The notes below the pieces were generated by a model that was not told where the DNA came from, did not search any database, and worked only from the letters and a program-made list of their open reading frames with translations. From assembly GCA_014338005.1 (NCBI GenBank), contig QUBZ01000005.1, forward strand, positions 1-64,000: 64,000 bases of DNA. Direction: 5' to 3'. This document shows positions 3,794 through 20,461 of this stretch, one piece after another (the stretch's first letter is position 1; each line of letters begins with the position of its first letter). The stretch is from Chloroflexota bacterium. Its GTDB lineage: Bacteria > Chloroflexota > Anaerolineae > Aggregatilineales > Phototrophicaceae. The translations under genes were made by a program, and so were the position numbers.

Positions 3794-3822
3794 TTGAAAT
3801 TTGGATTGAAATGGGGTATACT
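3794..3822 (+). promoter_or_regulatory. Sigma70-type promoter of the FMN-riboswitch operon
   Basis: TTGAAA at 3794-3799 and TATACT at 3817-3822 are separated by exactly 17 bases. They lie about 25 bases upstream of the first paired base of the FMN aptamer, so transcription would begin near 3829 and enter the riboswitch directly. This is read by eye and the start site is not measured. Confidence 0.7.
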
Positions 3823-3846
3823 GAGGTTTGAAAATTCTATAGCAGA

Positions 3847-4030
3847 CCTTCAGGGCAGGGTGAAATTCCCGATCGGCGGTATGGCGGCAAGCCAAGCCCG
3901 CGACCCGAGCCGTTAACCCCCAACGCGGCTGACGATAACCAACGGGGTTAATGCATCTTGATGCCGAGCATTGAGACGGTGGATCCGGTGAAAGGCCGGA
4001 GCCGACAGTGACAGTCTGGATGGAAGAAGG
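3847..4030 (+). promoter_or_regulatory. FMN riboswitch (RFN element)
   Basis: The conserved RFN segments are present in order: CTTCAGGGCAGGGTGAAATT near 3848, a CGGCGGT block near 3894, AAGCCCGCGACC near 3894-3905, then GGATCCGGTGAAAGGCCGG and AGCCGACAGT near 3981-4009, and finally AGTCTGGATGGAAGAAGG closing the basal stem near 4013-4030. The long middle arm (about 3906-3975) is the variable helix. FMN binding to this class represses riboflavin synthesis or transport genes. Here it precedes a terminator and an ABC importer, so high FMN should stop transcription of the importer. The leader carries a sigma70-type promoter upstream. Confidence 0.95.
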
Positions 4031-4080
4031 CAAACGATACTGCGCCGTTCTGCGGGTGGTATCGGTTTTATGTACCTGGG

Positions 4081-4162
4081 ACGGGGTGTTTTTGCGTACC
4101 CTGTTCTGGTTATGCCTTGTAAAAATGCCCTGTTGTTCTGCCGTGCGGACAACGGGGTTTTT
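4081..4162 (+). terminator. Riboswitch expression platform: terminator with competing antiterminator
   Basis: Terminator: CCCTGTTGT (4128-4136) pairs along 9 positions, one of them G-U, with ACAACGGGG (4149-4157), followed by TTTTT (4158-4162). Antiterminator: ACGGGGTGTTTTT (4081-4093) can pair along 13 positions, including three G-U type pairs, with AAAAATGCCCTGT (4121-4133). That arm contains most of the terminator's 5' arm, so the two helices exclude each other. The permease ATG follows the T run by only four bases, and its only visible ribosome-binding purines (GGGG, 4154-4157) lie inside the terminator's 3' arm. Translation may therefore be affected by the same fold. Confidence 0.8.
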
Positions 4163-4166
4163 GATT

Positions 4167-5003
4167 ATGCAGCTAAATGCGTTCCCCAAATCGCTCACTC
4201 GTCCGCTGGCGCTGCCGCAGGTAGGCCGCCGTCCGCTGCGCCGGTTAATCCGCCGGCTGACGCCGCTGCTGGCGCTGGCGCTGGTTTTGTTCGGCTGGCA
4301 GATGGTGGTGCTGCTGGAGGTTTATCCCGCGTTTATCATCCCGGCCCCGGCTGCCGTGCTGGAAAAAGCCGTGACGGTAGTCGGCGATGGCCGGCTGTGG
4401 CTGCACGCTTCGACCACGCTGGCGGCGGTGCTGTCCGGGCTGGTGGTCGGCGTGCTGGCGGCCCTGGTTCTGGGTTATGCCATCGCCAAAAGCTCGCTGC
4501 TGGATGCGGTTTTGTCGCCGCTGGTAGTGGCGCTGCAATCCACGCCGGTGGTGGCTTACGCGCCGCTGCTCATCATCTGGTTCGGCAGCGGGCTGACCAG
4601 TAAAATCGTCACCGGCGCGCTGATCGTCTTTTTCCCGATGCTAATCAATACGGTGGTGGGCATTCGCGGCGTGCCGTCCGATCTGCGCGACCTGATGCGC
4701 GCGATGCAGGCCACACGCTGGCAGACCTTCATCAAGCTGGAAGTCCCGGCGGCCATGCCGGTTTTGCTCAGCGGGTTAAAAATCAGCGCCACGCTGGCGG
4801 TGATCGGCGCGGTGGTGGGCGAGTTCGTCAGCGCCAACGCCGGGTTGGGTTTCCTCATCAACCTGGCGCGCAGCCAGTACGATACGCCGCTGGTGATCGT
4901 GGCCGTGCTGACGCTGACGGTGATGGCGCGGCTGCTGTACGGGCTGGCTTCGCTGGTCGAGCGGCGCGCGCTGGCGTGGCAGTCCCGCGCGCGGCGGGAT
5001 TAG
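4167..5003 (+). CDS. ribX: Riboflavin-type ABC importer, permease (RibX-like)
   Basis: A 278-residue inner-membrane permease of the SsuC/TauC/ThiX-like binding-protein-dependent transport family, with about six hydrophobic segments starting near residue 30. The EAA-type cytoplasmic loop is visible around residues 180-200 (MQATRWQTFIKLEVPAAMP), the contact site for the ATPase. The start at ATG 4167 is chosen because any earlier in-frame start would lie inside the riboswitch. Its FMN riboswitch and the following binding-protein and ATPase genes match the RibXY riboflavin uptake system described for Chloroflexi. Substrate specificity is inferred from the riboswitch; a related pyrimidine or flavin precursor is also possible. 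Confidence 0.85.
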   Translation: MQLNAFPKSLTRPLALPQVGRRPLRRLIRRLTPLLALALVLFGWQMVVLLEVYPAFIIPAPAAVLEKAVTVVGDGRLWLHASTTLAAVLSGLVVGVLAALVLGYAIAKSSLLDAVLSPLVVALQSTPVVAYAPLLIIWFGSGLTSKIVTGALIVFFPMLINTVVGIRGVPSDLRDLMRAMQATRWQTFIKLEVPAAMPVLLSGLKISATLAVIGAVVGEFVSANAGLGFLINLARSQYDTPLVIVAVLTLTVMARLLYGLASLVERRALAWQSRARRD

Positions 5004-5061
5004 ATCACCCGTTTTGCGCTTTGCGTTGAGTCTTTTTATTTCATCACAGGAGTTTGCAAGA

Positions 5062-6189
5062 ATGATTCGTCAGGCTTTGATGATCGCTGCGGTGTTGTTG
5101 GCGGTTATTCTCGCCCCGGCTGCGGGCGCGCAGCCGCCGGCTGACCAGACCTTCCTGCTGACGTTCGTCCCCAATGTCCAGTTTTCGCCCGTATACGTGG
5201 CGCTGGAAAAAGGCTATTTTACCGAAGCGGGGTTCAATGTGACGCTCGAACACGGCGATGAGCCGGTCAACGTGGATTTGATCGCCGCCGGCGAGCGGCA
5301 GTTCGGCCTCGTCAGCGGTGAGGAAGTCATCAAGGCGCGCGCCAATGGCCGCCCGGTGGTTTACGTTTACGAGTGGTTCCAGCAGTACCCGGTCGGCATC
5401 GTCGCGCCGGAGGGCGTGCAGTCGGTGACCGATCTGGCCGGGCGTAAGGTTGGCATTCCGGGGCGCTTTGGGGCCAGCTACAACGGCCTAATCGCGCTGC
5501 TGGCCGCCAACGGGATGACGGAAAGCGACATTTTGCTTGACCCCATCAGCTTTAACGCGCCGGACGTATTCTGCGTGGGCGGCGTGGAAGCATCGGTGGT
5601 GTATATCAACAACGAGCCGCTGCAAATCCAGGAGCGAATCAACCGGGGCGCGTGCAATGATATACCGGCGATTACGGTTTTCCCGGTATCTGCCGCCGCC
5701 GATCTGGTTTCTAACGGCCTCGTCACCAACGAGCAGATGATCGCGGAAAACCCGGAACAGGTGGCGGCGATGGTGGCCGCGTTTGACAAAGGGCTGCGGG
5801 GCGCCATCAATAACCCCGCTGAAGCCTACCTGTTGAGCGCGAAATACGTCGAAAATCTGCTGGCCGACCCCGACCTGGAAGCAGCGCTCACCACGCTGTC
5901 CGCGCAGCAGGCCGACCTGCTGGCGACCAACCCCGACCACGAGGCGATTTCTGCCAGCCGCCAGGCCATGCGGGACAGCCTGGCCGAACGTTTTGAGGAA
6001 TCGGCGCTGCTGCAATTTGACGTTTTACTCAGCACCATCAATCTGTGGGACGCGGATGAGCTGGGTATCACCACGCCGGAGTCGTGGGAAGTGACGCGGG
6101 AAACCCTGATGATGATGGGCCTGCTGGACAAAACGATAGACCTTGACCTGGACGCGGCCTTCACCAATGATTTTGTGCCGGGGGGGTGA
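5062..6189 (+). CDS. ribY: Riboflavin-type ABC importer, substrate-binding protein (RibY-like)
   Basis: A 375-residue secreted binding protein of the NMT1/THI5-like (SsuA/ThiY) superfamily. Residues 1-23 are a signal peptide (MIRQALMIAAVLLAVILAPA) with a probable cut after AGA; there is no lipobox cysteine. The mature part begins with the family pattern FVPNVQFSPVYVALEKGYF and a G-F-N-V-T-L-E-H-G-D segment. The ATG at 5062 is preceded by an AGGAG-type ribosome-binding site. It lies 58 bases after the permease and 9 before the ATPase. By analogy with Chloroflexi RibY it probably binds riboflavin or a relative outside the membrane; ligand residues cannot be assigned by eye. Confidence 0.85.
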   Translation: MIRQALMIAAVLLAVILAPAAGAQPPADQTFLLTFVPNVQFSPVYVALEKGYFTEAGFNVTLEHGDEPVNVDLIAAGERQFGLVSGEEVIKARANGRPVVYVYEWFQQYPVGIVAPEGVQSVTDLAGRKVGIPGRFGASYNGLIALLAANGMTESDILLDPISFNAPDVFCVGGVEASVVYINNEPLQIQERINRGACNDIPAITVFPVSAAADLVSNGLVTNEQMIAENPEQVAAMVAAFDKGLRGAINNPAEAYLLSAKYVENLLADPDLEAALTTLSAQQADLLATNPDHEAISASRQAMRDSLAERFEESALLQFDVLLSTINLWDADELGITTPESWEVTRETLMMMGLLDKTIDLDLDAAFTNDFVPGG

Positions 6190-6198
6190 GCGAAAGCG

Positions 6199-6960
6199 AT
6201 GCCCGCGCGAATCACGGTCAGCGACCTGGCCGCCGTTTACCAGATGCCGGGCGGGGATACCCTGCCCGCGCTGGGGCCGGTTTCTTTTCATATCGAAGCC
6301 GGTTCGTTTGTGTGCATCCTGGGGCCGAGCGGGTGCGGCAAAAGCACGCTTATCCGCCTGCTGGCCGGCCTCCAGCGGCCTTCGCGCGGGCAGGCGTTTT
6401 TAAATGACCAGAGCATCATACAGCCGTCACGCCGGGTGGGCTTGATGTTCCAGGACGCCAACCTGATGCCCTGGCGCACCGTGCTGGACAACCTGGTGCT
6501 GCCGCTGGAAGTGGCCGGCGTGCCGAAACCCGAACGCCTGGCGGCGGCGCGTGCGCTGCTGCCGGCGCTGGGGCTGGCGGATTTTGAGGGGGCGTACCCC
6601 GGTGAGCTTTCCGGCGGCATGGCGCAGCGGGTGGCGTTAGGGCGCGTGCTGATTCAAAAGCCGGACGCGCTGCTGCTGGACGAGCCGTTCGGGGCGCTGG
6701 ACGCCATGACGCGCGAGCGCATCAGTCTGGATTTGCTGGAGATGTGGGAGCGGCAGCGCCAGACGGTTTTGATGGTGACACACGACATTCACGAAGCGGT
6801 GCTGCTGGCCGACCGGGTGCTGGTTTTCAGCCGCCGGCCGGGGCGCATCGCCGCCGATATTCGCGTTTCGCTGCCGCGCCCGCGCCGCCTGGAAGATACC
6901 TACGGCGCGGCTTTCGGGCAGATCGCCGGGCAGGTGCGCGCCGCCATCAGCCAGGCGTAA
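6199..6960 (+). CDS. ABC importer ATPase of the riboflavin-type system
   Basis: A 253-residue nucleotide-binding subunit of the SsuB/TauB/ThiZ-like class. Visible motifs are Walker A GPSGCGKST (42-50), the Q-loop FQDANLMPW, the signature LSGGMAQRVALGR, Walker B ALLLDEPFGALD and the H-loop VTHDIHEAV. It starts 9 bases after the binding-protein stop and ends the operon that begins with the FMN riboswitch. It supplies the energy for uptake with the permease at 4167. The next gene faces it on the opposite strand 5 bases away, and I see no strong terminator between them. Confidence 0.93.
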   Translation: MPARITVSDLAAVYQMPGGDTLPALGPVSFHIEAGSFVCILGPSGCGKSTLIRLLAGLQRPSRGQAFLNDQSIIQPSRRVGLMFQDANLMPWRTVLDNLVLPLEVAGVPKPERLAAARALLPALGLADFEGAYPGELSGGMAQRVALGRVLIQKPDALLLDEPFGALDAMTRERISLDLLEMWERQRQTVLMVTHDIHEAVLLADRVLVFSRRPGRIAADIRVSLPRPRRLEDTYGAAFGQIAGQVRAAISQA

Positions 6961-18979: not shown

Positions 18980-20221
18980 TTACAGCCCGGCCTCGCGGCG
19001 CAGCAGGTCGGCCTTGTCGGTTTTTTCCCAGGGTACGTCCAGGTCATCGCGGCCAAAATGCCCGTAGGCCGCCACCTGCTTGAAGATCGGGCGGCGTAGG
19101 TTCATGTCGCGGATGATGGCCGCCGGGCGCATGTCGAAGTGTTTGCGAATCAGCCCTTCGATGACTTCATCCGGCACCACGCCCGTGCCGAAGGTTTCGA
19201 CGGCGATGGACGTGGGCTGCGCGACGCCGATGGCATACGACACTTGCAGCTCGAAGCGGCTCGCCAGCCCGGCGGCCACCACATTTTTAGCGATGTAACG
19301 CGCCATATACGCGGCGCTGCGGTCAACCTTCGTCGGGTCTTTGCCGGAAAACGCGCCGCCGCCGTGCCGCGCCACGCCGCCGTAGGTGTCCACGATGATC
19401 TTACGTCCGGTCAGTCCCGAATCGCCCAGCGGCCCGCCGGTGACAAAACGCCCGGTGGGGTTGACATAAATGCGCGTATCGGCGTCCAGCATGTCCTCCG
19501 GGACGATGGGTTTGATGATGTGTTCGATCACCGCCGCGCGGATTTCTTCCTGGCTGATTTCCGGCGCGTGCTGCGTGGAGATGACGATGGCATCCACCCG
19601 CTTGGGGCGGCCATAGGCATATTCGACCGTCACCTGGCTTTTGGCGTCCGGTCGCAGCCAGGGCAGTTCGTGGCTTTTGCGCGCTTCGGCCAGGCGGCGC
19701 GTCAGCTTGTGCGCCAGGGAAATCGTCAGCGGCATGAGTTCCGGTGTTTCGTCGCAGGCGAAGCCGATCATCATACCCTGGTCGCCCGCGCCGATGGCCT
19801 CAATTTCGGCATCGGTCATTTTACCCTCGCGGGCTTCCAGCGCCTTGTCCACGCCCTGGGCAATGTCCGGGGACTGCTCTTTGATCGAAACAATCACGCC
19901 GCAGGTATCGGCGTCGAAGCCGAATTTGCCGCGCGTGTAACCGATGTCGCGCACCGTCTCGCGCACCAGGCGTTCGATGTCTACATAGGCGCTGGTGGTG
20001 ATTTCGCCGAACACAAAAACGATGCCGGTCGTCGTGGACGATTCGCAGGCGACGCGCGCGTTCGGGTCCTGTTCCAGGATGGCGTCCAGAACCGCATCGG
20101 AAATCTGGTCGCACATTTTGTCGGGATGCCCTTCCGAAACCGACTCCGACGTGAAGACGTAGTGCGGCGAGGTCATGAAGGTGGTGTTGGACAACTGCTG
20201 ACGCTCCTTAAGACTGACCAT
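18980..20221 (-). CDS. metK: S-adenosylmethionine synthetase
   Basis: A 413-residue enzyme making S-adenosylmethionine from methionine and ATP. It has the N-terminal [20 protein letters not shown], the ATP-binding [12 protein letters not shown] block, and the C-terminal [19 protein letters not shown] lysine-containing loop. The length is slightly above the usual 380-400. I take the ATG at 20221, which follows GGAGGAAACTCAC. Upstream in-frame starts would lie in the riboswitch terminator. It is regulated by a SAM-I riboswitch, so SAM represses its own synthesis. Confidence 0.97.
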
Positions 20222-20241
20222 GTGAGTTTCCTCCATAAAGT

Positions 20242-20271
20242 AAAAACGCCTCCCCTGGAACCGAGGAGGCG
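20242..20271 (-). terminator. SAM-riboswitch terminator upstream of metK
   Basis: Minus strand: CGCCTCC (20271-20265) pairs with GGAGGCG (20253-20247), followed by TTTTT (20246-20242). It lies between the SAM-I aptamer and the metK ribosome-binding site, as expected for transcriptional attenuation. Confidence 0.88.
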
Positions 20272-20288
20272 CGTGTTCGCTGCTCAAG

Positions 20289-20390
20289 CTCATCTTCCAG
20301 AGTTACCCTCTGTCGGACTTGGCACCTTCCCAACGCTTTGGGGGTTGCCGCGGTTTCTCAGGGCCGAATCCCTCCACCGCTCGTGATGAG
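20289..20390 (-). promoter_or_regulatory. SAM-I riboswitch (S box)
   Basis: Read on the minus strand, the P1 helix is CTCATCACGA (20390-20381) with GAAGATGAG (20297-20289). Between them are the S-box landmarks GGTGGAGGGATTCGGCCCTG, GAAACCGCGGCAACC, GGTGCCAAGTCC and the final GGTAACTCTGG. SAM binding should favour the terminator at 20242-20271 and switch off metK. Confidence 0.95.
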
Positions 20391-20461
20391 TGCTGGGGTC
20401 GCACTTTCAGATTGTGTTTAATCGAATAACGACACCCTAAAATTAACCTAAAGTGAAGGTA

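Follow-up and report, generated by a model that had tools for sequence, protein, structure and literature searches.

An FMN riboswitch and a predicted riboflavin importer, RibXYZ, in an Aggregatilineales bacterium with no apparent means of making riboflavin

A three-gene operon in a bacterium of the order Aggregatilineales (Chloroflexota) most probably encodes RibXYZ, a riboflavin uptake system repressed by FMN in an organism auxotrophic for the vitamin. We put the probability of this reading at about 0.92. The operon lies in the 64,000-nucleotide stretch of DNA that was analysed, hereafter the window; the source genome is 4.82 Mb in 214 contigs and 96.8% complete. The locus is a further member of the established RibXY(Z) systems: its arrangement is already known and its mechanism is textbook. 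What we add is of modest scope, a probable order-wide dependence on the importer and a proposed, covarying antiterminator, and it is set against the work of Rodionova et al. through a paper citing that work.

RibXY was introduced in Chloroflexi under FMN riboswitches, without an ATPase component; in Roseiflexus castenholzii, which has no biosynthetic operon, it makes up for the loss (PMC3766115). RibXY from C. aurantiacus rescues an E. coli ribB mutant (PMC4418817). The latter paper cites Rodionova et al. for flavin binding by RibY and Rodionova et al. 2014/2015 for ribZ, an ATPase gene that accompanies RibXY in a few Chloroflexi. How does the present operon compare? Like C. aurantiacus RibXY (Caur_0816-Caur_0817), it has an FMN riboswitch followed by a COG0600-type permease and a COG0715/NMT1-type binding protein. 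Compared by description, it differs in that ribZ follows directly, whereas RibXY is without an ATPase in PMC3766115. The ribZ-linked RibXY of a few Chloroflexi, as far as the citing paper describes it (PMC4418817), has the same three genes and is apparently the same system, with no difference identified.

The earlier note on this DNA, made from the letters alone, had described an FMN riboswitch with a promoter and a terminator, followed by contiguous genes for a permease, a secreted binding protein and an ATPase. All of these elements were recovered (Table 1). The aptamer clears the Rfam gathering threshold of 66.2 bits (E-value 5.5e-22, covariance model), and its conserved core letters agree with the RF00050 consensus. 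The start given in the note, 3847, falls 5 nt inside the model boundary, so the description was accurate to within a few bases. This is the sole FMN riboswitch match, with no second one in the window or in the whole genome. Its variable arm carries an insert of about 67 nt (3911-3978) with predicted helices of its own, and the length and sequence of this arm vary among relatives of the same genus. Upstream of the aptamer, the TATACT element of the promoter is retained in most of the aligned same-genus relatives whose stretch extends that far. The three genes lie on one strand, separated by 58 nt (ribX to ribY) and 9 nt (ribY to ribZ). Elsewhere, the window opens with the 3' portion of a 23S rRNA gene and then a 5S rRNA (1-582). 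It also holds a SAM riboswitch (RF00162, 86.5 bits, 20287-20392, minus strand) that immediately precedes an S-adenosylmethionine synthetase-like gene (18980-20293, minus strand), an ordinary arrangement.

Table 1. Features of the FMN riboswitch and ribXYZ operon (positions in the window)
Feature	Position	Strand	Evidence
Sigma-70-like promoter, TTGAAA-17 nt-TATACT	3794-3822	+	Consensus scan, 10/12 matches
FMN riboswitch aptamer (RFN element) with long variable arm	3842-4035	+	Rfam RF00050, 100 bits
CAGGGC in the 5' strand of the aptamer, proposed to pair with 4127-4132 as antiterminator	3851-3856	+	Duplex prediction, covariation
Intrinsic terminator hairpin, then U-tract	4127-4158	+	Folding against shuffles; stem covariation
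ribX, ABC permease (BPD_transp_1)	4167-5003	+	PF00528, 2.1e-33
ribY, secreted NMT1/THI5-like substrate-binding protein	5062-6189	+	PF09084, 8.3e-38
ribZ, ABC ATPase	6199-6960	+	PF00005, 3.7e-30

Can this organism make riboflavin? The earlier note had proposed searching the genome for ribA, ribB, ribD, ribE and ribH. Models for RibA (PF00925), RibB (PF00926), RibE (PF00677) and RibH (PF00885), each of which worked in all or most of the control genomes, found no match here, in an assembly of 214 contigs from which about 3% of the genome is missing. RibD_C gave two matches, both beside AraC-type regulators and neither with a deaminase domain. We rejected these as RibD: the one with an open reading frame encodes a YwjB-like reductase of 180 aa that lacks the deaminase domain. 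RibF is present as a protein with an FAD_syn match whose length, 309 aa, is typical of the bifunctional kinase/adenylyltransferase, and this enzyme uses riboflavin as its substrate. Because RibF is present while RibA, RibB, RibE, RibH and any recognisable RibD are absent, the organism appears unable to make riboflavin but able to activate what it imports.

In the proposed pathway, RibY would capture riboflavin outside the membrane, RibX would pass it through and RibZ would hydrolyse ATP; RibF would then turn the vitamin into FMN and FAD. We infer ligand and direction of transport. The N-terminus of RibY resembles a signal peptide. Its AlphaFold model (pLDDT 94.2) finds its best Foldseek matches in the FAMP-binding protein 3ix1 and the thiamin-binding protein 4nmy, at about 20% identity. 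In the ribZ reading frame, a Walker A motif (GPSGCGKST), a signature motif (LSGGMAQ) and a Walker B motif (LLLDEP) can be read. This ATPase is unrelated to the MFS transporter of Clostridium difficile that is also called RibZ. The modelled RibY fold confirms the importer class and leaves the ligand unfixed; we assign riboflavin from the regulation, the gene content of the genome and the literature.

Might the importer take up several flavins or precursors, such as FMN, lumazine and lumichrome, instead of mainly riboflavin? We consider this unlikely. Lumazine alone would be no help to a cell in which RibE is absent, and riboflavin, as the substrate of RibF, would suffice. The broader specificity finds support in the reported binding of flavins by C. 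aurantiacus RibY (Rodionova et al., as cited in PMC4418817). We retain riboflavin as the principal cargo.

The pattern seen in this genome recurs across the order. An FMN riboswitch is present in 120 of 154 Aggregatilineales genomes. An alignment-based search found RibY in 142 of the 154, including 89 of the 90 high-quality genomes; RibH was found in two, neither of high quality (0/90). It is likely, in our estimation, that nearly all Aggregatilineales have lost riboflavin synthesis and depend on RibXYZ; biosynthesis would have been kept or regained in no more than one or two lineages, in one case under the same FMN riboswitch class. The order's sole strong RibH match is in genome G147 (87% complete, 550 contigs). 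There, one riboswitch (L082, reverse strand) precedes a ribD-ribE pair, so riboflavin supply in the order is under the control of this RNA class. A second (L081) precedes ribX at a contig end. G147 gave no RibY match, and its ribY may simply be unassembled, since ribX sits at the contig end. The same riboswitch class may serve both synthesis and uptake in this genome. A second genome, G037, has RibY together with a weak RibH match (46 bits). We therefore do not claim a strict mutual exclusion of RibY and RibH, on account of G037 and of the perhaps unassembled ribY of G147. The high-quality genome G131 (94% complete) has no RibY, RibH or FMN riboswitch, and may use another transporter.

Such order-wide data also bear on what the importer carries. 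ThiXYZ/ThiY pyrimidine transporters are of the same ABC importer type and share the binding-protein fold (3ix1); they differ in having a TPP riboswitch where the present operon has an FMN riboswitch, and the identity in the structural match is about 20%. Could RibXYZ carry a thiamin precursor or another pyrimidine, the FMN riboswitch having been acquired secondarily? The two closest solved folds of RibY, with their FAMP and thiamin ligands, point that way, as do its NMT1/THI5-like Pfam family and the thiamin riboswitches borne by family members elsewhere (PMC4418817). This alternative would leave unexplained why the FMN riboswitch is conserved in so much of the order, why the biosynthesis families, RibD_C excepted, are absent from this genome, and why RibY is nearly universal where RibH is nearly absent. 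Nor was any TPP riboswitch found in the genome. We judge a pyrimidine cargo highly improbable. Riboflavin, which the earlier note had named as the likely cargo, is supported by the conservation of the riboswitch ahead of orthologous operons, the gene content, the order-wide RibY/RibH pattern and the published work on RibXY.

Gene content was judged at 77 riboswitch loci, those long enough among 100 regions fetched. The full set of X, Y and Z is found at 58 of them, X with Y at 12, Y with Z at three, Y only at three and X only at one, and the operon's gene order is conserved in relatives. The earlier note had thought the pairing of RibX/RibY-type genes with their own ATPase worth testing. As something noteworthy it did not stand: a linked ATPase is the rule in the order, not the mark of an unusual operon, and the link had appeared in PMC4418817 (2015). 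Some members lack ribZ, which suggests that their ATPase comes from another source, as with RibXY when first described. At six riboswitch loci (L038, L061, L071, L074, L111 and L120) the binding-protein gene comes first with no RibX-like permease adjoining; the permease may be encoded elsewhere. No FMN riboswitch could be detected, even with relaxed thresholds, at ribXYZ operons L219-L225 and L228, and the operons of this riboswitch-less kind belong mainly to family f2 and part of genus g22.

Among the matches listed for the binding protein, the nearest named relatives are Anaerolineae metagenome-assembled genomes, several titled Aggregatilineales, and the best named match is isolate AMX57 (89% identity). 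Two named Anaerolinea relatives (L201 and L212) have the riboswitch and X, Y and Z; in one of them, Anaerolinea thermolimosa (L212), RibY is 42% identical to that of the window. The criterion used for RibY orthology in PMC4418817 is more than 38% identity at 80% coverage. Our contig scan for RibY relatives listed 80 loci, which did not include the C. aurantiacus protein.

How might the riboswitch control the operon? The terminator claimed in the earlier note is a strong one: the predicted folding energy of 4122-4163 is -20.9 kcal/mol (z = -4.3), and none of 200 shuffles was as stable. Six of the ten pairs in its stem have changed on both sides among relatives. A simple search found no comparable terminator at 37 of 93 loci. 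The 5' arm of the hairpin, GCCCUG (4127-4132), is the complement of CAGGGC, which lies at the aptamer's 5' border and overlaps P1, and in duplex prediction the 5' end of the aptamer is the best partner for this arm in the entire leader. We propose that at low FMN the free aptamer would pair, through its 5' strand, with the terminator arm; this antiterminator pairing would keep the terminator open and let RNA polymerase and ribosomes proceed. When FMN is plentiful the aptamer would close, the terminator arm would be freed and transcription would stop. Our search of the available literature found no earlier description of an RFN antiterminator. Two other hairpins were considered for the leader. 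One at 4044-4060 was rejected as a second terminator, since shuffled sequences fold just as well (z = -0.09). Another at 4074-4109, between aptamer and terminator, is stable (z = -3.9) yet not conserved in the aligned relatives, and was left out of the switching model. The sequence of its 3' strand, ACCCUGUUCU, is similar to that of the terminator arm, GCCCUGUUGUUCU; in most relatives the hairpin is not conserved.

The proposed antiterminator finds support in covariation. In seven of 13 related leaders the pair 3852-4131 is A-U and in the other six G-C, with zero exceptions. In 56 loci across the order it is G-C in 40, A-U in nine, G-U in five and A-C in two (Fisher p = 1.2e-5, a value that ignores relatedness). 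Related loci L079 and L080 break the pair. It is the only pair of the antiterminator that varies, and the independent changes are few, because A-U occurs mostly within the genus of the window, with single cases in two other lineages (L134 and L058). The covariation is not a by-product of the terminator stem, since the base opposite 4131 in that stem is G in 12 of the 13 rows.

The same hairpin may act on translation. It ends 8 nt before the ATG of ribX, and in 39 of the 56 loci this distance is 5-11 nt. The 3' arm carries GGGG 9 nt ahead of the ATG, which could hold the ribosome-binding site; between hairpin and ATG there is no other Shine-Dalgarno-like sequence. Barrick and Breaker classed platforms with a hairpin at most 10 nt from the start codon as dual control (PMC2258182). 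The present leader, like theirs, has a terminator within 10 nt of the start and a ribosome-binding site on its 3' side; no difference is apparent, the translational part here being a prediction. Because the hairpin ends so near the ATG, and because no plausible ribosome-binding site lies outside its 3' arm, control by FMN probably extends to translation as well as transcription, with the hairpin probably also preventing translation of read-through transcripts. Termination as the sole mode of control, with the short distance to the start codon incidental, would be consistent with a good terminator, its U-tract and an antiterminator alternative. We find this simpler scheme possible, though doubtful, given the distances conserved across loci, the want of another Shine-Dalgarno-like sequence in that interval and the limit of Barrick and Breaker (PMC2258182). 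Dual control remains the reading we prefer.

Earlier studies of wastewater Chloroflexota reported genes for vitamins B1, B7 and B12 as missing, and the texts of two of them make no mention of riboflavin. An order-wide dependence on riboflavin, if true, could partly explain why members of this group are difficult to culture alone. It would also give these abundant and mostly uncultured bacteria of wastewater and sediment a concrete, testable vitamin requirement.
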